Made by a program: the position numbers and the translations under genes
Assembly: GCF_003966895.1 (NCBI RefSeq)
Contig: NZ_AP018449.1
Coordinates: 193,424 to 257,423, forward strand
DNA length: 64,000 nucleotides
Direction: 5' to 3'
DNA from: Methylomusa anaerophila
GTDB lineage: Bacteria > Bacillota > Negativicutes > Sporomusales > Sporomusaceae
Notes under the pieces: model-generated
What the model was told of the DNA's origin: nothing
The model's database searches: none
The model's input: the letters and a program-made list of their open reading frames with translations, nothing else
Part shown: one piece after another, positions 42,259 to 64,000 of the stretch
Position numbering within the stretch: position 1 is the stretch's first letter
Layout: every line of letters starts with the position of its first letter

Positions 42259-44089
42259 TCATCGTATGACGGATTTCCCTTGTTTTTCGTAATATTTAAA
42301 TTCCTTAAATAATTCAATTCCTCTATATGACGACTGAAAACCCAACTCCCTCATTTGTTCGAAAATAGGTGACGTATCTATATCCTGTCCTTCTTCCTGC
42401 CAGTACAAAGTCGAGATGGTGGAATGTTCAATCCAGAGCCGCCGGTTTTGAAATGTTTCGACAAAGTCCTTGATTGCTCCTACCAGAACCTCCTGTTCCT
42501 CGGCAACAGGAACGATGATTTTTCCATACTGCCTTACCATTAAAACCGGACGGCCATTGTAAAAGACCACCGCTGTTCCGGGATTCCGCGTTACTTTTAC
42601 CCTATCCTCTTCATCTTGAAAGAGGGGGAGAAGATTCACCGGGTCACACGCTGCTATCGTGATAAAACCGCTATTTTCTAAAGATGCTTCATGTAAACGC
42701 AGACTTTCGATGACTTCATCTTTGGCATACTGAATCCCAGAAATTTTTTCCAGGAAGACACCCCGCTTCACGCCGCTAAAGAACTCACTCTGTTTTAGAA
42801 ACTCATACACTTCCGTCCATTTGACCGGGGGCTTTTCAAACTGGATGATCTCTTTGGAAAGAATGCCGTATCTACCCAGCAACATAGAAACATAGTATTG
42901 CAGCTGCTCACGATCATCCGCACTCTTTGACCAATGAATCACCGACCATCTCCCGGTTTTAGGGTTTGATCCATACTTAACCCATAGATTTTTCTTCCTC
43001 ACTTCCTGATAATACCGGACCGGAGAAAAGAGATCGTTGGTCACGAGTCCTTTCCAGACAAGACCTTCTACGCTATGCAAGAATTCGATTTGATCCATCT
43101 TTAGCTCCAGGGCGTATTCGTAGGTAAATCCGGCAGGTCGTGATTTAAGCAGTTCGTACACTCTCCGTTCCGGCTCCGTTATTGCCGGATCAGGCACACC
43201 GAAGGAGATGATCCGGGCAAAGTCTTCCCCCGGATAAAAAGCCACTTCTTTGGTCTTTTGGCGCAAGCGCCCAATCCAGCGTATGACTCCCATGGAACAA
43301 AGGGAATCCAACAGTTTCGGATCATACTGTTTCACCCGGGACGGCAGAACAGAATGCTCCCAGTACTCAACAGGTAAAAAGAGGCCCTGCAGCTGTTTGA
43401 TCACCGCTTTTAACTGCTCCTCGCCCTGTTCCAGATTCTCATTGACCCTTTGAAATTGACAAAGAAAAGAAAGATATGTTTCCGGCCGCTTTGGCTTAAT
43501 ATCCAAGCGTGCCAGTTCCACTGTCTTCCGCCGGATTCGTTCATAAACCTTACTGTGGCAATAGATCACCGCTGCCGCCTTTTTGCTCTCCTGCAGCCGC
43601 ACAACTTCACCCAGCATGATCAACTTTTTTAATGTTATCTTCAACAGCTTCGCAGAGATGGCATACTGTTTTTGAATATTTTGTATTGTAAACGGCCCGC
43701 TAAAGCGAATCCACCGTCTGAGAATACGCATCGCCGCGGCAACCGGGTCGGGATCAATTCCCATAATGTAGCTGCTAATCCAATCGCCCGCCGTCACTTG
43801 CCGCTCCTCGCCCGGCAGCCCTAACCGGATCATAACCTTATAACGCTCCAAATCCATTGCTTTACAATACAGGGGAAAATCTTCAACAGCAATCCAATAT
43901 TGTTCATCACGCTCGGTGAGTTGCAGCCGCATCAAGCGCCGCAAGAGCTTTCGCGGCATAGGGCTCGGCTTTCAATTCACCGAGGGAGAAAATAAAGTAA
44001 TACAGGTCATTCACGTTTTTTATGCTTCGGTCATACTTTTGGCTCAGCAGATCCTTCGTCACAGCTTGAATGGCCCGTTCGTCCAGCAA
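42259..44089 (-). pseudogene. C-terminal remnant of an Lhr-type (large helicase-related) protein
   Basis: The 566-codon frame 42259-43959 resembles the winged-helix and barrel region of Lhr helicases: GPFTIQNIQKQYAISAKLL, then YWEHSVLPSRVKQYDPKLLDSLCSMGVIRWIG. A second frame, 43907-44089, carries the upstream part (LDERAIQAVTKDLLSQKY...YFIFSLGEL) and joins through a frameshift near 43930-43960. No helicase motifs (Walker A, DEAD/H) remain upstream. The gene has lost its motor domain and marks the boundary with the AT-rich region to the right. Confidence 0.7.
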
Positions 44090-44266: not shown

Positions 44267-45364
44267 CTAAGCTCTAATATGACTATTAAATATATCATAT
44301 TTAAAAAATTTATTTAAGTGATCTATCTCTGACCATTTTATTAAAATAAAATCAATATCGTCCAGATGGTCGTAATATTTATAATCTATATTTGGATAAA
44401 ACCACCCCAACCATCTAGGCCTTTCCTCAAGTTCTCTCATTGTTAAAACAAAAGAGTCAATAATTCTAATCTTATCCACGTTATCAACAACTTTAGTTGT
44501 CAACTTATCAATTTCCTTATCATATTTAACAATTATAATTTTTCTTAAGTAAACGTCGTTAAATTTTGGAGCTAGATTAAATAACTTAAATATATCTCGC
44601 CACTGGAAAGTAACTTTATTTCTTTTTGTCCAACAGCCACTTTCTTCCTTCTTTTCAACTTGCTTCTGTGTCTGTTGAAATCTTAATAGTATACCTGGCA
44701 AAATTCTAATCTGTGTAGGAATTGAATAGATTTTTGACCGATTATTTTGAGGAAATAAAAGAGTATTTTCAAAAGAGTACGCATAATACTTATTACTCAT
44801 CGCACTTAGCAAAGTAGTTGTTTTTCCATCACCAGATTGACCAAGTATGAGTGCTCCATCACCAGTACCATTCGTAATTGCTGCTGCATGCAATACCAAG
44901 GCTCCTTGTTTTTCCATATATTCTATTAGAAGTTGGTTTCGTACAAATAAAACAATTTCTTTACTGCATTTCTCGGGATTAGGATTAATTACTTTAATTT
45001 CTCTTTTTAAATCATCTATCTCAAAAATTGAGCCACTTTGCTCGACATATACTATTCTTAGCTTATTATAATAGCCATATTTCCCTGTAACAAAATTGTC
45101 AGAGTACTCACCTTTTCGTAATATTATATCTCTATCTAAATACGATTTATATTTTTCAGAACTGTAATCATATAAGTCTTGATCACTATCGTAACAAACT
45201 GTCGCAAACACTTGGGAACTATATTCAAGTCGGGTGCTAACACCATAAAATTCCCCAAGGTAATAACAAAAAGCTTCGTATAAATTATTGTTTCTGTTTT
45301 CTATCTCTACATAATAATTATGAACTCCAACATAAAATCTATTAATATAAGTCACCACCTTCAT
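44267..45364 (-). CDS. HPr kinase-like P-loop protein
   Basis: 365 residues. ALVLHAAAITNGTGDGALILGQSGDGKTTTL is the HprK-type layout, with a His before a P-loop (GQSGDGKT), here in the second half. The first 150 residues are unassigned. HprK homologues outside sugar regulation modify peptides or small molecules in biosynthetic clusters. It is the last gene of the minus-strand AT-rich operon and overlaps the preceding stop by 23 bp. No HPr is encoded nearby, so the target is more likely a pathway product. Function inferred only from the fold. Confidence 0.7.
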   Translation of the reverse strand: MKVVTYINRFYVGVHNYYVEIENRNNNLYEAFCYYLGEFYGVSTRLEYSSQVFATVCYDSDQDLYDYSSEKYKSYLDRDIILRKGEYSDNFVTGKYGYYNKLRIVYVEQSGSIFEIDDLKREIKVINPNPEKCSKEIVLFVRNQLLIEYMEKQGALVLHAAAITNGTGDGALILGQSGDGKTTTLLSAMSNKYYAYSFENTLLFPQNNRSKIYSIPTQIRILPGILLRFQQTQKQVEKKEESGCWTKRNKVTFQWRDIFKLFNLAPKFNDVYLRKIIIVKYDKEIDKLTTKVVDNVDKIRIIDSFVLTMRELEERPRWLGWFYPNIDYKYYDHLDDIDFILIKWSEIDHLNKFFKYDIFNSHIRA

Positions 45365-46364
45365 ATTGCATAATTTCTATTACTTCCTTGATAAATTTTA
45401 AAACCCGTTCAGGGGTAGGGTTTCTAGAAGTTTCATCACATAACATAATTCCATCAACATTATCCAAAAGCATATTTGTAAGATCTAACACATCAGATCG
45501 CTGAGGAATATAAGACTTAGATAGACTTTCAATAATCTGAGTTGAAATTATAATTCCCTTATGATTATTTTTAACTATTCTTGTAAGCTTTTTTTGATTA
45601 ATTCCTAATTTTGTAATCGGCGTGCGTACACCCAAATCACCTCTGGCCATAATTAACGCATCAGAAACTTGAGATATCTGATCTGCATTATCAATTCCTA
45701 GTTGAGTTTCGATTTTTGAAATTATCAGTGGTCTCCATGTTCTGTTCAATTTCAATTTATATGTACAATCCGTTAGCTGACTTGCACTCTCTACAAATGA
45801 AAATGCTATGCAATCAGGCTTCCATTTGTTTAGGATTTGAGAGTATTCATCATATTTTTCATTCATTATTACTTCACAATTAACTGAACTATATTTTTTT
45901 ATGTATCCACTATTGATAAATTTAACTACAATAGTATATTCATCAACAATCTTCAGCACTTCAAAAGCAACTTGTCCATCGCCAACCGTAATAATTTGAT
46001 TATTATTAACGAAATTACCAAGTTTACAGTAATTTGTTTGCAAACAATCATCGGAAAACTCAAAGGAGCAGGATGATGATTTGATAATTTTTATATCTCC
46101 AGAAGAGACACAAAGCGTTGGCGTTCGAAACTCGCCGAATCTAACCTTTTGGGCTGGAAACGGAATATCAATTAAAATTTTTTTTGAATTATAATTAGAA
46201 ATAACGTCTTTGGCGACCTCAAGTTTATTATCAAAGTTATCAAAATCATTGCTACGGCCTAAATTGTATCTTAATATGTCCGCTCCATTAAGTAGAATAT
46301 TATTGATTTTGTTTTTGTCGGTAGCACCCGTACCTATTGTTGCAATAATATATGGGCGTGTCAT
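45342..46364 (-). CDS. Pyruvate-kinase-like protein, catalytic barrel only
   Basis: About 340 residues against 470-580 for metabolic pyruvate kinase; the allosteric C-terminal domain is missing. Catalytic elements are kept: RPYIIATIGTGAT, ADILRYNLGR, ISKIETQLGIDN (catalytic Lys and acid), IMARGDLGV, STQIIESL and MLCDETS. VGDGQVAFEV is a residual B-domain strand. It may transfer phosphate between PEP or an enolpyruvyl-like compound and ADP or another acceptor. AGGAAGG favours the ATG at 46364. It lies in the operon between the HAD and HprK-like genes, so a role in a dedicated pathway is inferred. Confidence 0.8.
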   Translation of the reverse strand: MTRPYIIATIGTGATDKNKINNILLNGADILRYNLGRSNDFDNFDNKLEVAKDVISNYNSKKILIDIPFPAQKVRFGEFRTPTLCVSSGDIKIIKSSSCSFEFSDDCLQTNYCKLGNFVNNNQIITVGDGQVAFEVLKIVDEYTIVVKFINSGYIKKYSSVNCEVIMNEKYDEYSQILNKWKPDCIAFSFVESASQLTDCTYKLKLNRTWRPLIISKIETQLGIDNADQISQVSDALIMARGDLGVRTPITKLGINQKKLTRIVKNNHKGIIISTQIIESLSKSYIPQRSDVLDLTNMLLDNVDGIMLCDETSRNPTPERVLKFIKEVIEIMQYEGGDLY

Positions 46365-46377
46365 ATCATACACCTTC

Positions 46378-47088
46378 CTACGAGATAATATTAGTAATAT
46401 CCTTAAGCGAATCCGAATGATAGCGAGCTCTCATGTCATAATTATGAACTAATATTGCATTAATACCAGCATTCTCAGCTCCAATTACATCTGCAATCAC
46501 GTCATCCCCTATCATCCACATTTCCTGGGGACTCCCTGACATTTTTTTTGCAGAATTATATATCATCTCATTTGGCTTTTCGTAACCTATGTTCGCAGAA
46601 GAAATAACAAATTCCATATATGTCCCTAATTCTAACGAATCTACGATCTCTGGTAATTCCGGGATATGATTGGACACAATGGCCTGCCTCCATCCCCTCA
46701 TCTTAAAGTTCTCAAGAACATTTATTGAGTCCGTAAACAGCTTATAATTAACTGGACTGGAATATAATTTCCGAGCTTCATGTGCATAAATTTTTGCTTT
46801 AGCAGAAAAGCCCAGTCTTTCAAATACATAAGTAAATACCCCTTCTACATACTCCCACCAACGGTTAGATTGATTTAAATGTAAATGAGGCTTATTTGAG
46901 TGATGCCAGGGAAGGTTTCCTTTAAGATGATTTAAAATTTCTTGCTTCTTTACTATATGTTGATTCTCATTAATATTTAGCACCTCTAAAAGAGCGCCAC
47001 TAATTCTCAAAGTAGAAAAGCCAAGAGTATTTTCAAAATCCCAAAAAATTATTCTTGAGTTATCCAAATATATTTCCCCCTTCTTCAT
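46378..47088 (-). CDS. HAD-superfamily hydrolase
   Basis: 236 residues. Motif I reads FWDFENTLG, so the usual second aspartate (DxD) is glutamate. Motif II is IVSNHIPEL, motif III GYEKPNEMIY and motif IV MIGDDVIADVIGAENAG. The Asp-to-Glu change could alter or weaken phosphatase activity. Its start is adjacent to the stop of the phosphoribosyltransferase gene. Substrate unknown; a phosphorylated intermediate of this cluster is the obvious candidate. Confidence 0.8.
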   Translation of the reverse strand: MKKGEIYLDNSRIIFWDFENTLGFSTLRISGALLEVLNINENQHIVKKQEILNHLKGNLPWHHSNKPHLHLNQSNRWWEYVEGVFTYVFERLGFSAKAKIYAHEARKLYSSPVNYKLFTDSINVLENFKMRGWRQAIVSNHIPELPEIVDSLELGTYMEFVISSANIGYEKPNEMIYNSAKKMSGSPQEMWMIGDDVIADVIGAENAGINAILVHNYDMRARYHSDSLKDITNIIS

Positions 47089-47616
47089 TTATACTTGGAA
47101 CACGGTGTAAAGTTTCGCGTCTCTATTTTCTAATAGTATTCTACCGTTTCTCCCATTTTCGATATAAGCTACAAAACAATTAACTACAAATCCTTTTGAA
47201 TTTAATTCTTTATACACATTCAAAAAAGTATTTCCAGAAGTAATTTCATCATCAACGATACATATTCTTTTATTTTCAAACATAGAATTAATATAAAAAT
47301 ATAGATTTTTATTCCTTGAATGTTCTTCAGTTACAATTATCTCGTTTGGTAAGGATAGGCGATTTTTGTAAGCTATTTGTAGTGGTTTTTTTAGTTTTTG
47401 AGCTAAAATAAATGCTGGAATAATACCACGTCCCGCTAATCCTATTATTAAGTCAATTTGGTCAGAATTCATTTTTGAAACAAGAATATCTGAAGCCTCA
47501 TCTAACAATTTATAATTAACCGGAAATAACGCCCCTTCAATATCACTATTAATTTTCATTCCTATTCCAGATGAATTATAACCTTTGATCTTCTCAATTT
47601 GAATCTGCGGAATCAT
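47089..47616 (-). CDS. Type I phosphoribosyltransferase-like protein
   Basis: 175 residues. The PRPP-binding loop is clear in RICIVDDEITSGNTF, with an earlier GLAGRGIIPAFILAQ pyrophosphate-loop region. Type I PRTases attach or remove 5-phosphoribose on bases or related nucleophiles. The start overlaps the radical SAM stop by 4 bp. In this setting a phosphoribosylated intermediate is suggested, but the acceptor cannot be read from sequence. Confidence 0.8.
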   Translation of the reverse strand: MIPQIQIEKIKGYNSSGIGMKINSDIEGALFPVNYKLLDEASDILVSKMNSDQIDLIIGLAGRGIIPAFILAQKLKKPLQIAYKNRLSLPNEIIVTEEHSRNKNLYFYINSMFENKRICIVDDEITSGNTFLNVYKELNSKGFVVNCFVAYIENGRNGRILLENRDAKLYTVFQV

Positions 47617-48539
47617 ATAGTATTTACCCCGGTATAGTTTTCTAATGCTCTATTTATTAGATTATTATTTATATGGTTATTATCACATTTTAAACATATC
47701 TCCAAGAAGTTTCCAGCTAAATGTTCTTTTCTGACTTCTGAATATAGACTGCTATTAATGATGTCCCTAATATGATTATTATAAACATTTCCCAAATTCA
47801 GTTGGCCATCATAATCCATACAACACAAAGGTACATCTCCATTCCAATTAATCGTAAAAGAATTCCATAATCTATGACAGTAATTATATTTCAAAGCATT
47901 AATATTGCTTGTTGCAAAATTATGGGTTATAAGTTTTTTTCTTATTTGAAATCCCAAATTGTCTAAAAATTGTTCAAATTCTTCTTCTTCTTTTTGAGTA
48001 TGGTCGGCTCCAATCATATCAACTATAAGTCTCTCTTTATAATTGCTCCTAGCAATTTCATTTAAATTATTTTCAATAACACCAAAATCTCTATTTCTTG
48101 TCTTTTCAAATTCAGTTCTAGGGGAAAGTGACAAAATTATATAACTAATTCCAGCCTCACATAACTCATTGAATAAATTAAAATTAAGTAAAAAACCATT
48201 AGTATGAGTATGAACTTCAAATCCTAATTTAGAAGCAGCCTGTGTTCTATCTACCAATTTTTCATCTAAGAGAGGTTCTCCCATATTTCTTATATCAATT
48301 GTTTTTATACCAATCTCTTTAGCCTCTTTAAGAATTTTATTGAATAAATCGTCCTTCATAAAGCCTTTTTTTCTTTTCATTATTTGATGTGCACAAAAAG
48401 AGCATTCAAAATTACAGCAATTAGTGATTTCAGGTCTTAATTCAATATGTGAATAATCTTCTAAAATCTCGCTTTTACCTAATGTTTCTTTGAAATATTC
48501 ATTTTGTTTTGTATTAGATATTAGTATTTTTTTATACAT
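47613..48539 (-). CDS. Radical SAM protein with SPASM-like C-terminus
   Basis: 308 residues. CNFECSFCAHQ is the radical SAM CxxxCxxC motif; RNMGEPLLDE follows at the usual place for the SAM-binding GE motif. C-terminal cysteines in LCCMDYDGQLNLGNV and ICLKCDNN resemble a SPASM/twitch auxiliary-cluster domain. Family members modify peptides, sugars or small molecules. No precursor peptide is visible next to it, so a small-molecule role fits the neighbours better. Between the P-loop kinase and PRTase genes, no gap. Confidence 0.85.
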   Translation of the reverse strand: MYKKILISNTKQNEYFKETLGKSEILEDYSHIELRPEITNCCNFECSFCAHQIMKRKKGFMKDDLFNKILKEAKEIGIKTIDIRNMGEPLLDEKLVDRTQAASKLGFEVHTHTNGFLLNFNLFNELCEAGISYIILSLSPRTEFEKTRNRDFGVIENNLNEIARSNYKERLIVDMIGADHTQKEEEEFEQFLDNLGFQIRKKLITHNFATSNINALKYNYCHRLWNSFTINWNGDVPLCCMDYDGQLNLGNVYNNHIRDIINSSLYSEVRKEHLAGNFLEICLKCDNNHINNNLINRALENYTGVNTI

Positions 48540-49175
48540 TTAAACATCTTCCCTTCTAAAGTTATATAAATTATTTAACTCATCAAAATATAAAGAATTA
48601 TAGACAACCCATTCATTTGCCATTTTCTTATACTTTGCCACTTTTAACGGTTGAATAACATTTTTTGAATTATAATATAAATAACATGTATCAAAATTAG
48701 AGATTAAATCAGAAAATTGGTTTAACAGTAATAACTGTTTTGTATATATTTTTTCAATACTTGTAACTTGTCCAATAAGTTTTTCCCTTTTAAATGCTCG
48801 TTCAACAGCTAATGATACGTCTGTATGGCAATAATAATTAATTAAACTATAATTGTATTTTTGACAAAGATTTAATATACATTTATATCTTGAACTTATA
48901 GAACAATGGTCATAAATTATATTATATTTATTTCGAATACAGTTTATCAAAATTCGATAAGCGTAACGTACAGCTATTTTCATTGATTTTTTTTCAAGCT
49001 TACTAAAGATATCATCATGATTTATTAAGATAAATTGATCTTTAAGAAACAACTGTTTAATCAAAGTAGTTTTACCTGAAGCTGGAATTCCTGATAAATT
49101 TATTAGAATTGGTTTTTGTTTATAATTTCCTTTTATTAAATAATAATGAATTAAATCATTCAATTGATATACCAT
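48540..49175 (-). CDS. P-loop kinase (zeta-toxin / polynucleotide-kinase-like)
   Basis: 211 residues. ILINLSGIPASGKTTLIKQL carries the P-loop, followed by FILINHDDIFSKL as in AAA_33-type small-molecule kinases, and a lid-like arginine helix AVERAFKREKLIG. Such enzymes phosphorylate nucleotides, sugars or antibiotics. It overlaps the end of the upstream gene by 20 bp. Fits the phosphate-transfer theme of this operon. Confidence 0.72.
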   Translation of the reverse strand: MVYQLNDLIHYYLIKGNYKQKPILINLSGIPASGKTTLIKQLFLKDQFILINHDDIFSKLEKKSMKIAVRYAYRILINCIRNKYNIIYDHCSISSRYKCILNLCQKYNYSLINYYCHTDVSLAVERAFKREKLIGQVTSIEKIYTKQLLLLNQFSDLISNFDTCYLYYNSKNVIQPLKVAKYKKMANEWVVYNSLYFDELNNLYNFRREDV

Positions 49176-50448
49176 ATATTTTGTCCATAAATTTTTTATT
49201 AATATAATCTACAGTTTCGAATAAAAAAGAAGTTTGCATAGGAAATCTTGCTCCTTTTTCACAAACAAAAGCTGCTAATTTTATACGTTTTCTTTCTAGT
49301 GAAGCTTGAGTAGAATTTATATGTTTATGAGTATGAATTAAAATTGGAATAAACCCCCCCCCAAGAAAAGAATTACTACAAATAATAATTCCACCATTAG
49401 TTTCTAACATAAAAGATTTCCCAAGTATCACATCTCTTCCAATAAAAAATATACTTGGATTACTTGTCGTATGTTCTGCTATAAAAGCACCTGAATTTAA
49501 ACCCAATATAACTCCTCTAGAAATTTTTAAAACAGCTTTGTAAAATTTAGATTTTAAAAATTGCATTGAAAAATCAGGTAAATTAAATTCATTTAATTGC
49601 AAACAAATTTTACATAATTCTGCTATTGAATAATTTTCCTCTCCAAAAGAAGCAACTTTTTGATCCCATTTCACTACATAATCAGACCAATTAATTAAAG
49701 AATTGTTCAAATCTATTTGAATAATTCTTTCTCCTTTTGCAGAATAAATTCCGACTTTAAACAAATCATAATTTCCAATTTGCAACTTATTAATTATTTT
49801 GGATAATATTAATACTGTTGATTCTTCCATTTTGTAAGCAATAGCTTGATTAAATATATAAAATATATTTTTAATGTCTTTTGGAATATCTATTAAATGA
49901 TCAACTTCATTAGATGGAAATTTTAATTTTTCATCCCATTTCTTATCCTTTTTTATATTGAAATTATTAATGCGTTCTTTAAATTTATTAATATCACTAT
50001 TTTGAAGTTCAATTATACCTGAATTTATTGCTTCAATGAGTAAAGTTGCTAATTCTAATTTAAAATCAAATGTAATTAAAGCATTATTTAAAAGTATATT
50101 ATTAATAATTATATTTTTTACTTCACTTATCTTTTGTTTTTTTTTCAAAAATTCTTTCAATATTTCTATAGAATAAAAATTTAATTGTTCATTACCAAAT
50201 AATACCCACGAATCATCATATAATTCTCTATTACTTAAAACCTTATTTATTGCATTAAGTGAAGAATTTAATATTTCTTCATTATTTATAATAAAATTAT
50301 AAATATTATCCCATAAATTTAAAGGTAAAGAAGCATAATCAATAATATTTTTGGGAGCTGTTATTACTAATTCAATATTATCTGAAGTTATATTTTTATC
50401 ATATTGATGAATAATATTCATAAGATTAATAGCAAATTGTCTTTTCAC
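49156..50448 (-). CDS. Protein with a hexapeptide-acyltransferase-like C-terminus
   Basis: About 430 residues. The first 300 match nothing I recognise. The last 120 resemble a short left-handed beta-helix acyltransferase end: FIGRDVILGKSFMLETNGG, SFLGGGFIPILIHTHKH. A G9 homopolymer on the coding strand (49354-49362) encodes the GGG of this motif and could vary in length. The longest frame starts at a TTG (50469); a GTG at 50448 after AAAGGA is likelier but not certain. Overlaps the oxidoreductase gene. Function uncertain. Confidence 0.5.
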   Translation of the reverse strand: MKRQFAINLMNIIHQYDKNITSDNIELVITAPKNIIDYASLPLNLWDNIYNFIINNEEILNSSLNAINKVLSNRELYDDSWVLFGNEQLNFYSIEILKEFLKKKQKISEVKNIIINNILLNNALITFDFKLELATLLIEAINSGIIELQNSDINKFKERINNFNIKKDKKWDEKLKFPSNEVDHLIDIPKDIKNIFYIFNQAIAYKMEESTVLILSKIINKLQIGNYDLFKVGIYSAKGERIIQIDLNNSLINWSDYVVKWDQKVASFGEENYSIAELCKICLQLNEFNLPDFSMQFLKSKFYKAVLKISRGVILGLNSGAFIAEHTTSNPSIFFIGRDVILGKSFMLETNGGIIICSNSFLGGGFIPILIHTHKHINSTQASLERKRIKLAAFVCEKGARFPMQTSFLFETVDYINKKFMDKIYGISIE

Positions 50449-51457
50449 ATTCCCACATTTCCTTTCCAATTATTTGTTTTAGCTTAATTCCAGTATTTAA
50501 ATACCGTTTTAACCTATCATTATTAATTTTTTCATTTGTATTTAACTTAATTAAATAATCTAGCAACATAGTATACATCATATCATCATTTTCTATACGC
50601 TTTTGATATATAACTTCACCATAATTATTCAATTCAGTGAATCCATATTCGTTTGAATTTGGATTTGAATAATTAAATATAATAGAAGTTTTATCGGAAT
50701 AATCAATTTTCAAAAATCTTTTTTTTTGGGGGTAACTTAAATTTGATACCAATTTGAAAATCGTTTTTAAATTTGAAAAGTGTACAGTTCCACTATTATG
50801 ATTTTTCAAGATTTGATTATTTATAATTAAATCTGACGAGCTTGAAAAAGTAATTTTTCCCAAATTGCCAAATAAATAATTACAAAGATAAATCATATGA
50901 GGAAACTCTAATTGCCAAACTAATGGTGCTTTCCCATTATAAAAACCGCGTTTATTCAAAGAATCAGTTAATCTATTTTTGGAAAACTCTATTGTAACAT
51001 TATCAGGAAGGGATGCTTTATTTTTTAAATAAAGCATCCCTTCTTTTGTAACTTGTGAATATAAATAATTCTCAATAATGAAAAGTTGTATTTTCGAAAA
51101 AATATTTTTAAGTTTATTAGATTCAACAATACATGGTTTTTCCACAATTAATTTGGTAAATCCAAAGGAAATAATATTATCCATAATGTCTTCAATAATT
51201 GGCGCTGGAACACAAATATCTACAATACTATTGGGACTTACTTTATAAAGTAAATCTTTAAAATTAGAATAAAATTCAATTATATCTATTTTTTTATTAT
51301 CCAATAAATTTGTATTTATATAATTATTTTTTTGAGGATCAAAAATATATATTTTATTAATATTGATTTTATTGATTTTATTGTTTTTAATTATTTTTAA
51401 ATATGAATTTAAATGTAAATATCCAGCCTTTCCAGCACCAATTATTATAATTTCCAT
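50426..51457 (-). CDS. Gfo/Idh/MocA-type NAD(P)-binding oxidoreductase
   Basis: About 343 residues. The N-terminal MEIIIIGAGKAGYLHLNSYL is the dinucleotide-binding loop; DICVPAPIIEDIMDNIISFGF and LIVEKPCIVESNKL (EKP motif) complete the family pattern. Relatives oxidise or reduce sugars and inositols, and a branch reduces thiazolinyl or imine groups in NRPS assembly lines. AGGAGA before the ATG at 51457. It is the first surviving gene of the AT-rich operon, directly downstream of the IS insertion that separates it from leader copy 16. Confidence 0.8.
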   Translation of the reverse strand: MEIIIIGAGKAGYLHLNSYLKIIKNNKINKININKIYIFDPQKNNYINTNLLDNKKIDIIEFYSNFKDLLYKVSPNSIVDICVPAPIIEDIMDNIISFGFTKLIVEKPCIVESNKLKNIFSKIQLFIIENYLYSQVTKEGMLYLKNKASLPDNVTIEFSKNRLTDSLNKRGFYNGKAPLVWQLEFPHMIYLCNYLFGNLGKITFSSSSDLIINNQILKNHNSGTVHFSNLKTIFKLVSNLSYPQKKRFLKIDYSDKTSIIFNYSNPNSNEYGFTELNNYGEVIYQKRIENDDMMYTMLLDYLIKLNTNEKINNDRLKRYLNTGIKLKQIIGKEMWECEKTICY

Positions 51458-51507: not shown

Positions 51508-53256
51508 CCTGAGTTCCCGTAAAGTGTAACGATGCAACATCAGACAACACCAGATAAACAGCGGGATTATGGCATTTCTCGTTGCCTCTCTCCTCGTTAT
51601 ATATTATAATATATAATGAGGAGAGATTGCGATGGCTAGGATCTATCAGACAAACAAGAAGACCGGGATTACGTATGCATACTCGAATGAAGCGTATTGG
51701 GATAAGGAAAAGCAGCAGTCAAGAGCAAAGAGAAAACTTATAGGGAAAGTTGATCCTGTTACCGGCGGGATCATTCCAACACGAGAACATAATAAATCTA
51801 AAGCGTCAATCCAAACTGGGGCAATAAAACCAGGACCTGTTGCAATGATGAAAACGCAACGGAGTTTCTTCGGTGCAAGCTACCTGCTTGATGCGATCGG
51901 AAAAGAGACGGGTGTCGAAGCCGATCTAAAAGCCTGTTTTCCTGATCGATACAAGAAGATATTATCCATTGCCTACTATCTTATCCTGGAAGAGAACAAC
52001 TCCCTTAGTCGTTTTTCCCACTGGCAGAAGTTGCACATTCATCCTTATGGAGACGATATCGCGTCCCAACGCAGCAGCGAGCTTTTTCAGTCCATCGACG
52101 AGAAGGCGCGAATGTCTTTCTTTGAAAAGCAAGGCAAACGTCGGATTGAGAAGGAGTATTGGGCTTTTGATATTACAACGATCTCCAGTTATTCTGAAGT
52201 CCTTAAGCAGGTCAAGAATGGCAAGAACAAGGAAAACGACCGATTACCTCAGTTGAATCTAGCGCTCCTCTTTGGTGAAGAATCCGGGCTACCCTTGTAT
52301 TATCGAAAACTCCCCGGAAACATCAACGATGTAAAGACCATAAAACAGTTGATGCATGAGTTCGATGTCATGGGCTATAAGAAAGTCAATGTCATCCTGG
52401 ATCGTGGTTTCTACAGCAAGAAGAATATTGATGAACTCTATAAAAATCATCAGAAGTTCGTCATAGGAGTCAGGCTGGGACTAAAGTATGTTAAGGAAAT
52501 CATGGAAGGGGAACGGGAGAATCTTAAACTTCTGGGGAAACCTACAGACGCAATTTAGCGCTTACGGCCTTTGTAGGATGATTGACTGGGAGTATGAGCA
52601 GGAACGACCGTACAAGGGGGATGTCCTGACCGCTAAGCGGAGAGCCTATCTTCTACTTTACTATAGCCCCGAGAAAGCCGCAAAGGACCAGGTGGACATG
52701 AATAACTATCTGACGAGTCTGTTTAGCGATCTGAAGGAAGGTAGCGAACGGGAATACTGCGCCAAAGATTATGCCAAATATTTCGAAGTCACCCAGACGC
52801 CTAAGAGAGGCCGACAGGTGAAACCCCGGGAAGATGTTATACGGGAAGAAGCCAGGAATTATGGCTACTTTGCTCTGTTATCTAATGAGGTCAAAGACCC
52901 CTGCGAGGCACTGTCATTATATCGAAGCAAAGACATCGTTGAAAAAGCGTTTGGTAATCTCAAAGAACGATTGAATTTCAGAAGAATGCAGGTGTCCTCT
53001 GAATTATCCTTAAACGGGAAATTATTTGTTGAGTTTGTAGCATTGATCTATCTGTCCTATGTGAAGAAGAAAATGCAGGATGCTAAGCTGTTCGAAAAGT
53101 GGACAATGCAAGGTTTGCTGGATGAACTGGACACGATAGAGCTGTTTGAGGCACCCGGATACGGTCGTGTCCTCGGAGAAATCACTGCAAAGCAACAGGC
53201 TCTCTTTGAAGCACTAAGTGTGAAATGTCCCTCGTTATAAATTTCGGGAACTCAGG
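51508..53256 (+). mobile_element. IS1634-like insertion sequence with 6-bp target duplication
   Basis: Terminal inverted repeats CCTGAGTTCCCG (51508-51519) and CGGGAACTCAGG (53245-53256). Directly outside them is ATAAAA on both sides (51502-51507 and 53257-53262), a target site duplication, so the element transposed here as a unit. It encodes the split transposase at 51632-53240 and sits between leader copy 16 and the AT-rich operon. Confidence 0.88.
51632..53240 (+). pseudogene. IS1634-type DDE transposase, frameshifted
   Basis: Frame 1 (51632-52558) begins MARIYQTNKKTGITYAYSN and contains the DDE core half (EYWAFDITTISSYSEVL, NVILDRGFYSKKNI). The second half (about 52530-53240) continues in the +1 frame (AYGLCRMIDWEYEQERPYKG ... 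SKDIVEKAFGNLKERLNFRRM). The shift lies around 52530-52558. A one-base insertion, two-base deletion or sequencing error would explain it; programmed frameshifting is not usual for this family. Confidence 0.82.
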
Positions 53257-53361
53257 ATAAAAGCAGAGGCGTCTTTTCCTTTCTCTATGATACTGCCATT
53301 ATATCTGTCAACTTTTGGACAGGCAATACCATCAGCTTTCCGGCCTTTTGAATCAGCGGCA

Positions 53362-53425: not shown

Positions 53426-54129
53426 AAATACAAAATATCATATCTTTTATATTATCAGGCATTTAACATTTTTTTACATATAGTTTATATTATGTATTAT
53501 ATATGGAATTATCACCAATTTCAACCACTTTTTATCGACAACTTCTTATCTGTACTTACATATATTTTTATAAAATGATAAATTTATCTATATTCCGACT
53601 CAATTGATACCAGTCTATTTGCTCAACCTGTAAAAAAAATAACCCAGATGTAGAATGGTACTATATTTTTTGATGTTTCAGTTATTAAATTTGCGGATTA
53701 TGGGCACCTGCTATAGCGTAGTATTTTTAGATGATTTCACTTCATAAATCTACCGCCATATTCTCTCCTGCTTGATTTCTCTGTTTTCCATCCTTGTCTT
53801 CGGGAACATAAACCATTTCCTTCCATCGTCCACAACCTCAGGCCCCATCTAGCATTAAGCCATGTGTTTCCTTTCCACCCAAACTACGCACTCGATGTGC
53901 GTTTTGATAGATAGATAATACTAATACGCGAAATGATTGAGTTTTGCGAAAAGGTGCACCCCCCCCCCCCCCAAAAATTGAGTGGGGGGTATTTTTCATT
54001 AGGAATTAAACCTTACGCAAAAATCGCTATTTTTCCATACGCAACTAGATTTTCAATAATTTTTTTTTACAATATCTTTTCGCTCCATTATTTCCCATCT
54101 TCCATTATATAAATTATAGTTAATCAATC
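53426..54129. other. Intergenic stretch with a 15-C homopolymer
   Basis: No convincing gene. It contains the AT-rich promoter region of leader copy 16, a run of 15 cytosines (53959-53973) followed closely by a G6 run, and near 54063-54100 a minus-strand segment encoding IMERKDIVKKNY, which resembles the start of the broken PLP-enzyme gene at 60874 (MERKDVVERN). A decayed frame near 53760-53860 could not be identified. Confidence 0.5.
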
Positions 54130-55422
54130 TTAAACATTTCGTTTATAGATATTTAAGCCATATTGATATTTGTATTTTTTTAAATTAATTACCCTCTTTT
54201 TCTTCTTATTAATTTCAATTATTACATCGTACCTAAATTTGGTAAGCTCATTTTCTATTGAATAAATTTTATTATAAAAATTAATTTTTCTTATAAAAAG
54301 AATCTCAAGTTGTAAATCACAGAAAAATTCTTTCGAAAGAAAAAGTTCTTCATTTAAATCAAGTTTTGTATTGTATTGAGGATGATTTTTCTTAAATTCA
54401 AATAAAGAATTCATAAGATCTGATTTTTTATTTAAATCCATAACATCACCAATAAATATAATTCCTTTTTCCCCCAAAAGCTCAATTAATAATAAAAGTA
54501 TTTTTCTCAAATAATTGACTCCACTAAAGCAGTGAATAACACTATTCATAATGGCAATATCAAAGTTTTTTTCTTCTAAATTCCTTATTTCATGAGCCGG
54601 AACGCATTGCAATTTAACATTGCTCAGGCCTATTTCCGCAGCTTTTTGTATATTTTTTTCAATTGCAATCTCTGACAGATCAGTCCCAAGATACATACCC
54701 ACATATGGCGCAATCTTAAACATACTGATACCCGAAGCACAACCTACTTCTAAAATTTTTTTATCCTTATTAAGGTATTTTTCAAGTTTAAGAAATATAT
54801 TATTTGCATATTCATCCATTTCTGGTTTAGAAAAGTATTCCCTTGTGTAACTATTAATCCAGCCCCCACCTTCTATTTCATTCTTTGCATTCATGCCTAC
54901 TAATTCCCATAGTTTTTTATTCATAAGTTTGCTATTTTGAGGCTCATTTTGATAGACATCTGCTGAATCAATGCAAATGTAGCTTTTTACAGATGGACAT
55001 TCCCATAAAAGTTTGTTAAGTATTCTCAAATATTTTTTAACTGAAAGAATCACATTTATATTAGCTTTATTTATTACTCTAACTATTTCTTCAAATGTTA
55101 TCTTAGATTCAATCAATTTAAATTTTTGTCCATTTTTTTTCAAAGTTAGAATTGAGATAATCTGACTGACGGAACCATATTCATCAAAAATTGCAATATT
55201 TTTTTTATGAGTTTTAGGTTCACAAGTTAAAATATAATCTTCAAGTACATTGCATATTCTGTCAACTTTCTTAAACGTTAAATTTGAGGTTTCATGAGCT
55301 AATGCAATTTCATCAGGATATTCTTTAACATAATTACTAAACTTTTGAATATCAAGAATACCTCCATTTTCACTATATTCTTTTTCCCAAACTCCTAACG
55401 GATCTATTTCTAATCTGCTCAT
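54130..55422 (-). CDS. Stand-alone partial adenylation / methyltransferase protein (NRPS-like)
   Basis: 430 residues. Residues 20-170 look like the N-terminal part of an AMP-binding domain (FSNYVKEYPDEIALAHETSNLTFKKVDRI), but the P-loop-like SGTTG and later core motifs are missing. Residues 190-340 are an NRPS/PKS-type methyltransferase: GGGWINSYTREYFSKPEMDE, ILEVGCASGISMFKIAPYVG, YLGTDLSE. It may methylate a carrier-bound intermediate with the A half only structural. Start ATG overlaps a duplicated end of the ABC ATPase gene, so it once followed that gene directly. Confidence 0.75.
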   Translation of the reverse strand: MSRLEIDPLGVWEKEYSENGGILDIQKFSNYVKEYPDEIALAHETSNLTFKKVDRICNVLEDYILTCEPKTHKKNIAIFDEYGSVSQIISILTLKKNGQKFKLIESKITFEEIVRVINKANINVILSVKKYLRILNKLLWECPSVKSYICIDSADVYQNEPQNSKLMNKKLWELVGMNAKNEIEGGGWINSYTREYFSKPEMDEYANNIFLKLEKYLNKDKKILEVGCASGISMFKIAPYVGMYLGTDLSEIAIEKNIQKAAEIGLSNVKLQCVPAHEIRNLEEKNFDIAIMNSVIHCFSGVNYLRKILLLLIELLGEKGIIFIGDVMDLNKKSDLMNSLFEFKKNHPQYNTKLDLNEELFLSKEFFCDLQLEILFIRKINFYNKIYSIENELTKFRYDVIIEINKKKKRVINLKKYKYQYGLNIYKRNV

Positions 55423-55566: not shown

Positions 55567-56592
55567 TCAGCGTAGAAAATCAGGCACCTCATTGCCACGA
55601 ACAGTGCTATGATCAGCATTGGCTGGTATTGAGAACCACCGCTCATTCCATTCCTTCAAATGCTTATCCACAGTATTCTGAGATATCTCAGCATAAATCT
55701 GAGTCGACTGTAATGACGAGTGCCCCAGAAAGTTCTTAATCACAGCAAGCGGGACACCTGCTTCTAACATATGGCTTGCTGTCGAGTGCCTCATTGAATG
55801 GGGCGTATAACTGTTATCAATAAATAAGCCAGGATTCTTCTGCTTTGCTATCCAGACATATTTTTTGAAGATTTCTTCGATGCAGAATACGGTCATCTTT
55901 TCGTGTGTCTGGCTGGAGAATATATGCCTTTCCGGAAGCGATGCTATCTTCCTGTGATCAATGTAACCCTTCAAGAGAGTCGCGCATGCATAAGAAATCC
56001 CAATCCTTCTCTTTTTGTGTCCCTTTCCAGTGATGTTAAGAGAAGCGCCTCTTTCCGAGAATTGAATGTCCTTCACAGTAAGGTCACATATTTCCTGAGC
56101 CCTTGCGCCACTAGCATACATGAGACTCAGAAGCACTTTGTCCCTAAGACCGATCACATAGTGATCGTCCGGAAGCCTCAGTAGGATTGTGACCTCTTCC
56201 CTTGTGAAGATCGCCCGATTCTTATGTGTGGCCTTCTTCATCGGAATCCTTGTGACACTGCTTCTGAATGTCGATGCAGCTGCGGAATCCCTGTTTTGTG
56301 CATAAGAGGAGAATGACGCAAGTGCTGACAGACGCTGGTTCTTGGTGGTTGCACTACATCCTCGGGACTTTTCAAGCCACGACAGGAAGTCGATCATTGT
56401 CTGGTAATCGAGAGCCTCAAAAGATATCTGGTCAGCTGAGATACCTTTCTCCTGATACATATATTTCAGAAGCAGTCTGAAAGCTGCTTTGTACGATTTT
56501 ATCGTATTCGGGCTGGCACCTACCGCACCCGGAAGGTATTCTGTTACAAAACTGTTCAGCAGTTCAAGAAATGGGGAGGCTTTACGTTTCAT
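55567..56592 (-). CDS. Tyrosine recombinase, third of the RIT trio
   Basis: About 341 residues. N-terminal SAM-like core-binding domain (TIKSYKAAFRLLLKYMYQE), catalytic domain with Arg in YASGARAQEICDL, HSMRHSTASHML and the nucleophile Tyr in LGHSSLQSTQIYAEIS. GGAGGTGG before the ATG at 56592 sets the start inside the end of the preceding gene. All catalytic residues are present. Confidence 0.88.
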   Translation of the reverse strand: MKRKASPFLELLNSFVTEYLPGAVGASPNTIKSYKAAFRLLLKYMYQEKGISADQISFEALDYQTMIDFLSWLEKSRGCSATTKNQRLSALASFSSYAQNRDSAAASTFRSSVTRIPMKKATHKNRAIFTREEVTILLRLPDDHYVIGLRDKVLLSLMYASGARAQEICDLTVKDIQFSERGASLNITGKGHKKRRIGISYACATLLKGYIDHRKIASLPERHIFSSQTHEKMTVFCIEEIFKKYVWIAKQKNPGLFIDNSYTPHSMRHSTASHMLEAGVPLAVIKNFLGHSSLQSTQIYAEISQNTVDKHLKEWNERWFSIPANADHSTVRGNEVPDFLR

Positions 56593-59646: not shown

Positions 59647-59907
59647 CTATAATTCTAATCCCACACGCTTCTCTATGAGATTGACTAAACTATTAATGTT
59701 TTCAAAATTACTCAAGTCAAGTTCAATGTAATCAAACTCAAATTCAAATTCCTCTTCGCAATATATAATAATGTCTACAAAACCAAGAGAATCAACTCCA
59801 TATTCATTTGATAAGGATGCATCGAGATTAACATTATAAAAATTATGTATAATATCTTTTTGTATTAAATATTTTACAATTTTATTTGTTATATCTTCTC
59901 TTTTCAT
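59647..59907 (-). CDS. Acyl carrier protein
   Basis: 86 residues, normal length. YGVDSLGFVDIIIYCEEEFEFEFDY has the DSL motif whose serine takes the 4'-phosphopantetheine arm. It is acidic and helical as expected. The gene is isolated from fatty-acid genes and lies in the natural-product region with an amino acid:[carrier protein] ligase and NRPS-like parts, so it probably carries an aminoacyl group. Confidence 0.88.
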   Translation of the reverse strand: MKREDITNKIVKYLIQKDIIHNFYNVNLDASLSNEYGVDSLGFVDIIIYCEEEFEFEFDYIELDLSNFENINSLVNLIEKRVGLEL

Positions 59908-60881: not shown

Positions 60882-60957
60882 CGGATCTATTTCTAATCTG
60901 CTCATATTCCCACCGCTCTTTTGCCATCTCCCTGATAAATTTGCTTAATCATCCCTT
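60882..60957. repeat. 76-bp direct repeat, right copy
   Basis: Contains the end of the intact ABC ATPase gene and MSRLEIDP followed at once by a stop codon, i.e. the first eight codons of the methyltransferase gene with the rest deleted. Pairs with 55399-55474. Confidence 0.85.
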
Positions 60958-61891
60958 CAACTCCCGGTTCCTCTACAGTCAGATCCAAGATTTCGTATTT
61001 TTTCATTAATTCCGCAATAATCTCGGAAGGGGATAAATCATCTTTATTGAACCTCAGCCACTTTTGGGGGCCATTTTCTTTCATTAAGACGACGTGATTC
61101 ATGGTTAAATTAAAATCATTCTCCTTGATTTTAACGACCAGAGTCCGGTACTTGCCTAACCTTTCCCGCATCGTATCCAGATTGCCATCGTAAACGATTT
61201 TTCCATTATCAATAACAATCGTTCGCGTACATAACCTCTCAATATCGCCTATATCATGGGTCGTTAGGATGACGGTTACTTTTTTTTCTCTATTAATAGT
61301 AGTAACAAATTCACGTATTTTCTCTTTAGCGATCAGATCAAGTCCGATGGTAGGTTCATCCAGAAAAAGAATAGGCGGATTATGTACCAATGAAGCTGAG
61401 AAATCAGCTCTCATTCTTTGCCCAAGACTCAGTTGTCTGACCGGCTGGTTTAAAAACTCGCCAATTCCTAATACATCATGAAATAATTCAAGGTTTCTTT
61501 GATAGGCTTGCTTGGGTACTTTATAGATATGCCTTAATAGATTAAGGGAATCAATAACGGGCAGTTCCCACCAAAGCTGGGTTCTTTGTCCGAAAACTAC
61601 TCCGATGTTTTTGGCATGCTCTTTGCGTTTTTTATGGGGAATCAACCCGTTAACTGATATTTCACCTGACGTGGGTACTAAGATTCCGGTCAGCATTTTT
61701 ATGGTTGTGGATTTGCCTGCTCCATTGGGTCCAATATAACCTACTATTTCCCCTTTGTGAATTCCAAACGAAATTTCATCCACCGCTTTTTTTATTTCAA
61801 ATTGATTGCTAAATAAATAGGAAAATACGCCCTTTTGTTGTTTGGTAATTCGGAATTCTTTGCACAGTCGATTGACTTTGATAATATCCAA
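60902..61891 (-). CDS. ABC-2-type exporter ATP-binding protein
   Basis: 329 residues. Walker A GYIGPNGAGKST, signature LSLGQRMRADF, Walker B ILFLDEPTIGLD, then H-loop TTHDIGD. The 80-residue C-terminal extension after the core is usual for this subgroup, where the ATPase is encoded with two ABC-2 permeases. It energises the pair 61950-63539; its substrate is probably the product of the carrier-protein pathway around it. Confidence 0.9.
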   Translation of the reverse strand: MDIIKVNRLCKEFRITKQQKGVFSYLFSNQFEIKKAVDEISFGIHKGEIVGYIGPNGAGKSTTIKMLTGILVPTSGEISVNGLIPHKKRKEHAKNIGVVFGQRTQLWWELPVIDSLNLLRHIYKVPKQAYQRNLELFHDVLGIGEFLNQPVRQLSLGQRMRADFSASLVHNPPILFLDEPTIGLDLIAKEKIREFVTTINREKKVTVILTTHDIGDIERLCTRTIVIDNGKIVYDGNLDTMRERLGKYRTLVVKIKENDFNLTMNHVVLMKENGPQKWLRFNKDDLSPSEIIAELMKKYEILDLTVEEPGVEGMIKQIYQGDGKRAVGI

Positions 61892-61949
61892 TAAACTCTA
61901 TCCTTTCATGGATTGTCGCGAGATATGCAGACGATTCTTATTAAATTGC

Positions 61950-62747
61950 CTAACTGCCGACACTTTGGTATTTTGATATTCCTGTATTGGTTATCCACAA
62001 CGACAGGAGCAATATAAACAAGCCAACAACCGGAGTATAGAGATAAAAGCCGTTTTGCTCACTTGGTTTATCCAATATGTACAAGGCGGGATAATAGTTG
62101 ATAAACGCCCACGGCAAGATATAAGTTAAAACGAATGAAATACCACCGCCAAAAATAGATACCGGATAGTTAATAAAATTGCGCAGCGTGAAAAACAATA
62201 CATTGCCTAAATTCATGGATTTTTTCAGCCAAAAGCTTAACGATCCGAAAATAATCATCGCCCCGGCCTGGATCAAAATTCCCCCAATGATGCAAACCAG
62301 CAGTACGATAATTTTATAAGCAGTCCAATCTATCCCTAAGCTAAAAATACTTGCTCCCAAAAATATTCCCGAAACAATAATTTGACCAAAACCCGTCCAA
62401 TCAAAACCGTAGAACAACATGCTGATAAGAGGATGTAAAGGACGAATCAAGAATTTATCGAAGTTCCCGTTATTTATATTTTCGCCCAGTTGGTAATAAT
62501 GTTTCCAAAGTGCAGTAGTAGCTACCGCATAGGAAAACAAATTCAGCGCCATTAAAAAAACAAGTTCCTGGTAATTCCAGCCGGCGACTGATTGAAATCG
62601 ATGCGTCAAAATCCAAATGGTTAGATACATCAATAAATAGGTATAAAAGTTGGCAAAGATGCCACTGATGAAATTCGCTTTATATTGACTATCCGCTTTA
62701 ATAAAATAGCCAATGTGAAGACCATACAGTTTTAACAAGTACAGCAT
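61950..62747 (-). CDS. ABC-2-type permease subunit
   Basis: 265 residues with six hydrophobic segments, e.g. LIKADSQYKANFISGIFANFY and VLFFTLRNFINYPVSIFGGG. It matches the ABC-2 permease family found as unequal pairs with such ATPases. The 3-bp gap to the upstream permease and 58-bp gap to the ATPase gene show one operon. Confidence 0.87.
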   Translation of the reverse strand: MLYLLKLYGLHIGYFIKADSQYKANFISGIFANFYTYLLMYLTIWILTHRFQSVAGWNYQELVFLMALNLFSYAVATTALWKHYYQLGENINNGNFDKFLIRPLHPLISMLFYGFDWTGFGQIIVSGIFLGASIFSLGIDWTAYKIIVLLVCIIGGILIQAGAMIIFGSLSFWLKKSMNLGNVLFFTLRNFINYPVSIFGGGISFVLTYILPWAFINYYPALYILDKPSEQNGFYLYTPVVGLFILLLSLWITNTGISKYQSVGS

Positions 62748-62750
62748 CGT

Positions 62751-63539
62751 CTAACCTCCCTGTATGATCAGCTTTTTTATGCCCGTCTTCCACAAATAGA
62801 ATGTCCCGAAGCCGAGCAGCACAATCCAGGAACAGGCCGCCGTAAGGTTAAAAAGCAACTCGCCGGTAGATATTTTATTGACAGATAAGCTTTGAGGAAA
62901 TTGATATAGAAGCTGAAATGGAAGAAAATAAGAGATTTCTCTTAATACGTCCGGAAAAAACCATAAGGGAATGACCCCTCCCCCCAGGATACGAACAGTA
63001 TCCCGGAGTATTCTGACAAACCACCCCGCGTTTAAAAACGTAAAATGCAGCAAGCCAATCATATAATGCAGCAGCCAATAGATAATGATGTTTAAGACCA
63101 GCGCAACCATCAACAACAGGACATTGAGTAAACTTATTTTTAATCTAAAATTTAAAACAATCACGGCAAATATAATAACCGCTATGCCTTTCGCAGCAAA
63201 GCCGCTGAGTGTATCTCCCAGGGTTCGGGAAAACATGCCGGCCGCAAAATTGTAAGGTCGGAGCAGTTCCAGAGAAATAGAACCGTCCAAAACTTTCCCT
63301 CCTACTTCTCGAGCAACTGTATCCGTATACAGAAGACTTAAAATAATTCCCATGATTTGATAAGTAATCATATCATGAAGCGACAACTGGCTTATGCGAT
63401 AATCCCCATACAGCGATCTCCACAAGTAAATTTGAACATACAAAGCAATAATGCTGCCCAAAATACTAATTAGGGTATCCAAACGGTAAGCAAGTGAATT
63501 TTTCAAGGCTATTTTCATGATTTCATAATAGGTTCTCAT
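62751..63539 (-). CDS. ABC-2-type permease subunit
   Basis: 262 residues, six hydrophobic segments; begins MRTYYEIMKIALKNSLAYRL and contains DTVAREVGGKVLDGSISLELLRPYN, a family trait in the first cytoplasmic loop. Heterodimer partner of the permease encoded 3 bp downstream. A 24-bp gap follows the carrier-protein ligase gene. Confidence 0.87.
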   Translation of the reverse strand: MRTYYEIMKIALKNSLAYRLDTLISILGSIIALYVQIYLWRSLYGDYRISQLSLHDMITYQIMGIILSLLYTDTVAREVGGKVLDGSISLELLRPYNFAAGMFSRTLGDTLSGFAAKGIAVIIFAVIVLNFRLKISLLNVLLLMVALVLNIIIYWLLHYMIGLLHFTFLNAGWFVRILRDTVRILGGGVIPLWFFPDVLREISYFLPFQLLYQFPQSLSVNKISTGELLFNLTAACSWIVLLGFGTFYLWKTGIKKLIIQGG

Positions 63540-63563: not shown

Positions 63564-64000
63564 TTAATAGGTAACTTTGTCCAAATGAATGTTATTTTCA
63601 TTGATTACAGCTAACCAACGTTCTAAGCCAAATCCCACACAGCCTGTTACAATCTTGCCTCCATCATCAAAATTGAATGCTTTGCTAAAATGAGTATCAT
63701 GAAAATTAAATGAGGCAATCGCTACTTGTTTTTCTTTAATTTGTAATGATAACTCGTGTTTTAGTGAGTTTGCTTTTTGCAGCTTAGCTTTAATTATATT
63801 TTTTTGCGATGGATAAAACTGATCATTAGCTTCAATAATATCAGCAGATAATCCTAATTTTTGGGTAAATTCTAGTGCCAATTGTTTTGTCTTTTCTAAT
63901 TGCCTCAGCACATAATCACTAGCTCCAACAAATACAATTTCCCTGACAGTAAAATCCCACAGCCGAGTAATCCCATCAAAATTACCATGTTCATATCTAT
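63564..64000 (-). CDS. Amino acid:[carrier protein] ligase, seryl-tRNA-synthetase-like, partial (N-terminus beyond window)
   Basis: The minus-strand frame is open to the window edge. RYEHGNFDGITRLWDFTVRE resembles the class II motif 2 region and TGCVGFGLERW motif 3 of atypical seryl-tRNA-synthetase homologues, which activate an amino acid with ATP and load it on a carrier protein rather than tRNA. Cysteine in GCVG is the family's zinc-ligand position. A carrier protein is encoded at 59647-59907. Its place upstream of the exporter genes points to a biosynthetic role. Confidence 0.82.
   Translation of the reverse strand, partial: RYEHGNFDGITRLWDFTVREIVFVGASDYVLRQLEKTKQLALEFTQKLGLSADIIEANDQFYPSQKNIIKAKLQKANSLKHELSLQIKEKQVAIASFNFHDTHFSKAFNFDDGGKIVTGCVGFGLERWLAVINENNIHLDKVTY

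Follow-up and report, generated by a model that had tools for sequence, protein, structure and literature searches.

An AT-rich island split by insertion sequences in Methylomusa anaerophila may carry both halves of a thiotemplate secondary-metabolite cluster

Pyruvate kinases are known for their part in glycolysis, and in butirosin biosynthesis BtrL and BtrP carry out O-ribosylation. HprK-like kinases of lasso peptide clusters have a His-Lys-Asp-Asp catalytic motif, and in the pseudomycoidin pathway phosphorylation by PsmK is followed by PsmN attaching hexoses to that phosphate (PMC9266682). Here we describe an operon of Methylomusa anaerophila in which genes for a pyruvate-kinase-like (PK-like) protein, a phosphoribosyltransferase (PRTase) and an HprK-related kinase lie in one run of eight. 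The operon was found in a 64,000-nucleotide stretch, referred to as the window (contig NZ_AP018449.1, positions 193,424 to 257,423). With moderate confidence, no better than an even chance, we read it as the tailoring half of a thiotemplate cluster for a secondary metabolite, a cluster acquired horizontally and since broken by insertion sequence (IS) elements.

The operon consists of eight consecutive minus-strand open reading frames (ORFs) of 175 to 437 amino acids that span 51463 down to 44267 and either overlap by 4 to 44 nt or are separated by 0 to 4 nt. G+C content is 22 to 35%, and in nearly all eight ORFs the third positions have the lowest value. Because the probability that each frame is open by chance is only 10^-7 to 10^-20, and the other frames contain many stops, the eight ORFs are real genes that have been kept open; all eight frames are intact. 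The first gene more likely starts at the ATG at 51457, with AAAGGAG upstream, which is the limit given in the first-pass annotation. A first-pass annotation, made by a model from the sequence alone, had described eight overlapping or nearly abutting AT-rich genes, and the ORF list, G+C content and frame-openness probabilities bear this out. Profile searches also agreed with its labels for the PK barrel, the HAD hydrolase, the PRTase, the radical S-adenosylmethionine (SAM)/SPASM enzyme and the P-loop kinase, while two labels, HprK-like and hexapeptide-like, need correcting.

The operon forms the downstream half of an AT-rich island of about 25 kb that splits a single lhr gene (Table 1). Across the junction G+C falls from 0.45-0.50 to 0.20-0.35, and the two lhr pieces lie about 25.5 kb apart and together have lost about 870 residues. 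A search for an intact lhr or an empty site returned no match to the lhr C-terminal part in 27 other genomes of the order. Since the AT-rich island splits lhr and was not found in the sampled relatives, its horizontal acquisition is supported, as had been suggested from the junction at a decayed Lhr gene. All metabolite-type genes of the island are on the minus strand. The AT-rich neighbors of the operon on this strand include genes for a nonribosomal peptide synthetase (NRPS)-type protein, a carrier protein, an amino acid:[carrier protein] ligase (aa:CP ligase), a PatB lyase, a PF14907 nucleotidyltransferase and an ATP-binding cassette (ABC) exporter, all enclosed by the two halves of lhr, which supports the thiotemplate reading. 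The aa:CP ligase scores 107.5 bits against PRK07080, the best of its matches but below the cut-off of 357, and is thus related but divergent.

The last operon protein is better described as a distant HprK-related/FomB-like kinase than as an HPr kinase proper. Its matches to HprK-related kinase B (TIGR04355, 1.2e-11) and FomB (2.2e-6) are both under cut-off, and a search with the Pfam domain Hpr_kinase_C (PF07475) found no match anywhere in the genome at an E threshold as loose as 10. The His and the P-loop Lys are kept, but the lasso-type His-Lys-Asp-Asp motif is not, as Glu stands at the Asp position, followed by Asn. FomB, a phosphonate monophosphate kinase, is likewise a small-molecule kinase from an antibiotic cluster, but the profile similarity is weak (27 bits, where the cut-off is 400) and no phosphonate-forming PepM gene was seen here.

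The nearest relative of this kinase is encoded on a Bosea plasmid (21% identity over 96% of the length, 2e-19), beside genes for a histidine phosphatase, a major facilitator superfamily exporter and a PF14907 protein, and via the Bosea protein relatives on Streptomyces and Agrobacterium plasmids were reached. A profile of five HprK-related proteins retrieved eight further Bacillota loci, of which one lies on a contig of 6.8 kb. PF14907 genes occur in five of these loci, adjacent to the kinase gene in L051 and L055, two genes off in L053 and L057 and several genes off in L052; L053 carries an Asn-synthase-type gene, as in lasso clusters, and L057 has a similar-looking one. Together with the pairings on the Bosea and Streptomyces plasmids, this makes the HprK-related kinase and PF14907 a recurrent module of lasso-type and other loci. 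As a recurrence that extends beyond lasso peptides to carrier-protein and nucleoside-type clusters, it is usable as a genome-mining marker. The Methylomusa island resembles the PsmK/PsmN and PadeK lasso modules in combining an HprK-like kinase, a PF14907 protein and an exporter within a single cluster, but here the two genes are about 19 kb apart and the catalytic Asp is replaced. That both are in the island is indirect evidence that its two halves belong to one cluster. The first-pass interpretation, which had seen neither the PF14907 partner nor the larger island of which the operon makes up one half, is supported in part. Neither a lasso precursor nor a B/C protein or PqqD was seen among the island genes examined, and a ribosomally synthesized and post-translationally modified peptide was rejected because no plausible precursor peptide was found among the small ORFs.

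The remaining operon proteins, apart from the PK-like enzyme, could be assigned with varying success. The first gene encodes an oxidoreductase, as had been noted; its GxGxxG and EKP motifs are present, but its Gfo/Idh score is marginal (PF01408, E 1.7e-4, 22.7 bits, just under the cut-off of 24), and it weakly matches inositol 2-dehydrogenase (TIGR04380, 1.4e-3). The 437-residue protein that had been called hexapeptide-like has no match in Pfam, NCBIfam or PDB. Its C-terminal stretch reads like a possible short left-handed beta-helix. A single-sequence AlphaFold2 (AF2) model had helices in the N-terminal part but, at a pLDDT of 44, was uninterpretable, and a single-sequence model of a second orphan protein was no more usable. 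The P-loop kinase matches AAA_33 (1.4e-7), selen_PSTK (2.4e-5) and PSTK structures (1.5e-4). The PRTase matches PF00156 Pribosyltran (8e-10) and archaeal HPT (1e-17) and has an intact PRPP-binding motif, IVDDEITSGNT (PRPP, phosphoribosyl pyrophosphate), and the HAD hydrolase matches HAD_2 (1.3e-13) and TIGR02252 (2.4e-27). The radical SAM enzyme (Radical_SAM, 1.2e-12; SPASM, 4.5e-14) has a CX3CX2C motif and a further Cys pattern compatible with one auxiliary cluster. Its relatives sit in polysaccharide-like loci, and the HprK-like relatives on L054, L055 and L057 are near genes that read as glycosyltransferases; with the Gfo/Idh enzyme and the possible hexapeptide fold, these associations could point to a locus for a surface polysaccharide or glycan decoration. 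We find this quite unlikely, as the island genes examined include no glycosyltransferase, flippase or polymerase and instead comprise NRPS-type and carrier-protein genes. An anti-phage defense, for example a viperin-like radical SAM enzyme with a nucleotide kinase, is highly improbable. The radical SAM core does match the PADLOC pVip model (1.3e-13) and the PRTase has weak matches, but the pVip match is limited to core residues 38-149, the presence of the SPASM domain is at odds with a viperin, and six of the eight operon proteins, including the adjacent kinase, are without a PADLOC match.

The closest parallel in gene set, at the superfamily level only, is a 7-deazapurine nucleoside-type cluster on Streptomyces plasmids (NZ_CP066832, NZ_CP107737 and NZ_CP107890). 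The cluster at L038:10940-36111 is that of the Streptomyces liliifuscus linear plasmid, and the two further plasmids have nearly the same gene order. Genes for an HprK-like protein, PF14907, a P-loop kinase, HADs, a radical SAM enzyme, a methyltransferase and an NRPS are shared with the island, and two of the three records also have an annotated PRTase. That PRTase and HAD genes abut in the operon and keep company with these other families in the Streptomyces cluster speaks for the thiotemplate reading. A class I/II aminotransferase is also listed in the Streptomyces cluster. In contrast, folE, queD, queE and queC are found there and were not seen in the island stretches examined, and no PK-like gene is annotated there. 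This parallel suggests a narrower form of the thiotemplate reading, in which the PRTase would put ribose-5-phosphate on a base-like acceptor and the HAD and the kinases would finish a phosphorylated peptidyl-nucleoside. The island PRTase has its highest scores against profiles of hypoxanthine/guanine and adenine PRTases, as expected for such a role, but with no base-making gene seen and with Streptomyces and island PRTases that are not close homologues, we consider a nucleoside-type product doubtful.

Butirosin offers a second comparison, in that the PRTase adjoins a HAD phosphatase and a putative Twitch radical SAM enzyme, as for BtrN, BtrL and BtrP, although neither a 2-deoxy-scyllo-inosose (DOI) synthase nor a glycosyltransferase was seen here. 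An aminocyclitol or aminoglycoside-like product would have the Gfo/Idh enzyme oxidize a cyclitol, the radical SAM enzyme act like BtrN, and the PRTase and HAD O-ribosylate like BtrL/BtrP. In phmmer searches the nearest PDB relative of the radical SAM enzyme was BtrN (6e-7), but BtrN is among the few solved Twitch enzymes, which makes this weak evidence, and BlsE scores nearly equally (3e-6). The weak inositol dehydrogenase match, the abutting PRTase and HAD genes, and the carrier protein and PF14907 gene of the island also fit this scheme. However, no DegT-type aminotransferase was seen, any more than a DOI synthase, and the protein encoded at L008:10214-11335 was rejected as a BtrH candidate since it matched neither Pfam nor an annotated Priestia BtrH protein. 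We therefore regard an aminocyclitol as unlikely. Nucleoside-like and aminocyclitol-like scaffolds both fit the operon, and neither is shown. Separately, a Priestia koreensis plasmid (L026:12166-16692) carries aa:CP ligase-like, BtrH-domain, carrier protein, ATP-grasp and MurF genes.

Among the operon products, the PK-like enzyme is the most unusual. It is about 27 to 31% identical to canonical pyruvate kinases and scores above the cut-off of 30 against the PF00224 barrel (1.7e-43, 149 bits) but below that of 306.4 against the pyruvate kinase equivalog TIGR01064 (176.7 bits). The first-pass annotation had correctly taken it for a catalytic-only homologue. Like pyruvate kinases of the K+-independent group (EC 2.7.1.40), which are marked by Lys117 (PMC4374775), it has the A and B domains, the aligned phosphotransfer residues (the RxN Arg and Asn, an Asp, the SKIE Lys and Glu, ARGDLG and TQ), Lys at position 117 and nonpolar residues at 113 and 120, and it thus resembles the K+-independent pattern. 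Unlike them, it lacks the C-terminal (allosteric) domain, with the alignment of the 343-residue protein stopping where that domain begins; NFSHG is replaced by NLGRS, which changes the Ser and the His; two residues are inserted before position 117; and the gene lies in a metabolite island. Because elsewhere in the genome there are two more PK genes, whose frames span 588 and 500 amino acids, the island copy is unlikely to be a housekeeping gene. The residues kept predict phosphotransfer on an enolate, and we found no description in the open literature of a role for such an enzyme in a comparable metabolite cluster.

We searched for the same gene set in other genomes. The genome scans sample species, and single-sequence tblastn reaches moderately close relatives only, so the absence of a match is no proof of uniqueness. 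At the thresholds used, matches were confined to M. anaerophila for the PK-like orthologue (300 class and 398 phylum genomes, the phylum matches being long, ordinary-looking pyruvate kinases), the HprK-related protein (family and phylum scans), the PRTase (E<=1e-7, 299 phylum genomes) and the aa:CP ligase (250 class genomes). Tblastn against plasmids found no relatives of the PRTase (E<1e-3), the hexapeptide-like protein, the P-loop kinase or the L008:10214-11335 protein. Searches of viral contigs and phages gave no match. An alignment of the HprK pair retrieved no relative from genome contigs, and the single match of a hand-built motif scan (L022) was read as a TniB-type protein and discarded. 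The whole eight-gene set occurred in no second genome or plasmid among those searched, and no cluster with this set was found in the open literature. This agrees with the first-pass view that the set belongs to no familiar pathway, and it was not found conserved in a characterized polysaccharide or nucleotide pathway.

Several observations count against a working thiotemplate cluster. The IS1634-family element, whose insertion point is some 50 nt upstream of the first operon gene, now lies between the operon and the closest minus-strand sites that look like strong promoters (53496-53524 and 53298-53326), although such matches are no evidence of function. Three tyrosine recombinase genes, which we take to resemble a recombinase-in-trio element, and IS remnants separate the island halves, which may never have formed a single pathway. 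None of the island genes seen points to a particular scaffold, and with no orthologous operon found no pathway step is backed by co-conservation. Pairwise comparison with the Streptomyces cluster gave no convincing relation for the PRTase or the radical SAM enzyme and weak relations for the HprK, PF14907, HAD and kinase proteins, the P-loop kinase having no close homologue. Motif I of the HAD hydrolase is DFENT, with Glu in place of the second Asp, and an alignment places Glu-Asn in the HprK-related kinase where four relatives have Asp-Arg; these changes may mean altered or reduced activity. A decaying patchwork, in which unrelated genes were swept into an IS-rich hot spot and the pathway no longer works, is a serious rival, if a somewhat unlikely one. 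The upstream IS1634, the recombinases, the IS66 remnant, the PatB fragment, the truncated adenylation-domain protein, the two Glu-for-Asp changes and the restriction of the set to one searched genome are what such decay would leave. Yet none of the eight frames is interrupted, their translational overlaps are tight despite very low G+C, most catalytic motifs are intact, and the IS1634 insertion is probably recent because its target duplication is clean.

What the data show is which genes are there, that the operon frames are intact, the families to which the proteins belong, how the island is laid out and that the kinase/PF14907 pair recurs. Under the thiotemplate reading, for which we infer both the reactions and their order, the SerRS-like aa:CP ligase would load an amino acid onto the carrier protein, and the PatB lyase, the Gfo/Idh and radical SAM enzymes and the methyltransferase would alter the scaffold. 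The PRTase would add ribose-5-phosphate from PRPP and the adjacent HAD would remove the phosphate, which would leave the product ribosylated, in nucleoside-like or O-ribosyl form. The P-loop and HprK-related kinases could then phosphorylate hydroxyls, and the PF14907 protein could decorate that phosphate as in the PsmK/PsmN pair, for activation or self-protection, before the product leaves through the ABC exporter. For the PK-like enzyme we predict phosphate transfer between ATP and an enolate like phosphoenolpyruvate (PEP), with either a non-standard substrate or a role in supplying the kinases. The general idea of the earlier proposal is supported, in that the scheme would give a phosphorylated and probably phosphoribosylated small molecule to which phosphate is added and from which it is removed. 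Tentatively, and with considerable doubt, we suggest a new natural-product pathway in which a dedicated biosynthetic phosphotransferase derived from pyruvate kinase acts on a PEP-like or other enolizable intermediate, alongside the ribosylating PRTase/HAD pair and a decorating HprK-related/PF14907 module that is fed by a non-ribosomal carrier-protein route. If this is true, recruitment of a pyruvate kinase into a metabolite cluster would constitute a new biosynthetic phosphotransfer. The cluster also joins modules that are usually apart (loading by an aa:CP ligase, PRPP-dependent ribosylation and the HprK-like/PF14907 pair) in one Bacillota genome.

Table 1. Operon and island features in the window; the prefix L008 is used where the island runs past the window end.
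Feature	Coordinates	Strand	Basis or remark
lhr C-terminal remnant	42259..43959	-	PRK09751 profile positions 1025-1286
HprK-related/FomB-like kinase	44267..45364	-	TIGR04355, FomB profiles
PK-like A+B domain protein	45342..46373	-	PF00224
HAD (DREG-2-like) hydrolase	46378..47088	-	HAD_2, TIGR02252; abuts PRTase
Type I PRTase	47089..47616	-	Pribosyltran; overlaps radical SAM stop codon
Radical SAM enzyme with SPASM/Twitch-type C-terminal domain	47613..48539	-	Radical_SAM, SPASM
P-loop small-molecule kinase, AAA_33/PSTK type	48540..49175	-	AAA_33, selen_PSTK
Orphan ("hexapeptide-like") protein, 437 aa	49156..50421	-	No family match; ORF start possible up to 50469
Gfo/Idh-like oxidoreductase, first operon gene	50426..51457	-	PF01408 GFO_IDH_MocA and motifs
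IS1634-family element	51508..53256		25-nt terminal repeats; 6-bp target duplication ATAAAA; transposase frame split in two
NRPS-type adenylation-domain N-terminal part fused to methyltransferase	54130..55422	-	tblastn matches in NRPS genes
Three tandem tyrosine recombinase genes	55567-58790		
IS66 transposase remnant	59145-59537		
Acyl/peptidyl carrier protein with DSL motif	59647..59907	-	PP-binding 6e-6; AmcB ACP 1.6e-12
Fragment of second PatB-like lyase	60323-60874		Visibly similar to intact PatB copy
ABC exporter	60902..63539	-	DrrA-like ATPase (60902-61891) and two membrane-protein ORFs
aa:CP ligase	63564..64000, past window end L008:6988-7809	-	PRK07080 6e-31
PF14907 nucleotidyltransferase	Beyond window end, past aa:CP ligase	-	PF14907 6.6e-44
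Intact PatB C-S lyase	L008:8978-10144	-	TIGR04350 445 bits, cut-off 340, 1.9e-133
Protein of no known family	Beyond window, between intact PatB and lhr N-terminal piece		
lhr N-terminal remnant	L008:12857-13342		PRK09751 profile positions 12-154

Elsewhere in the window, two genes at 31837-34612 read as nitrogenase component I-like proteins and lie next to ABC transporter genes.

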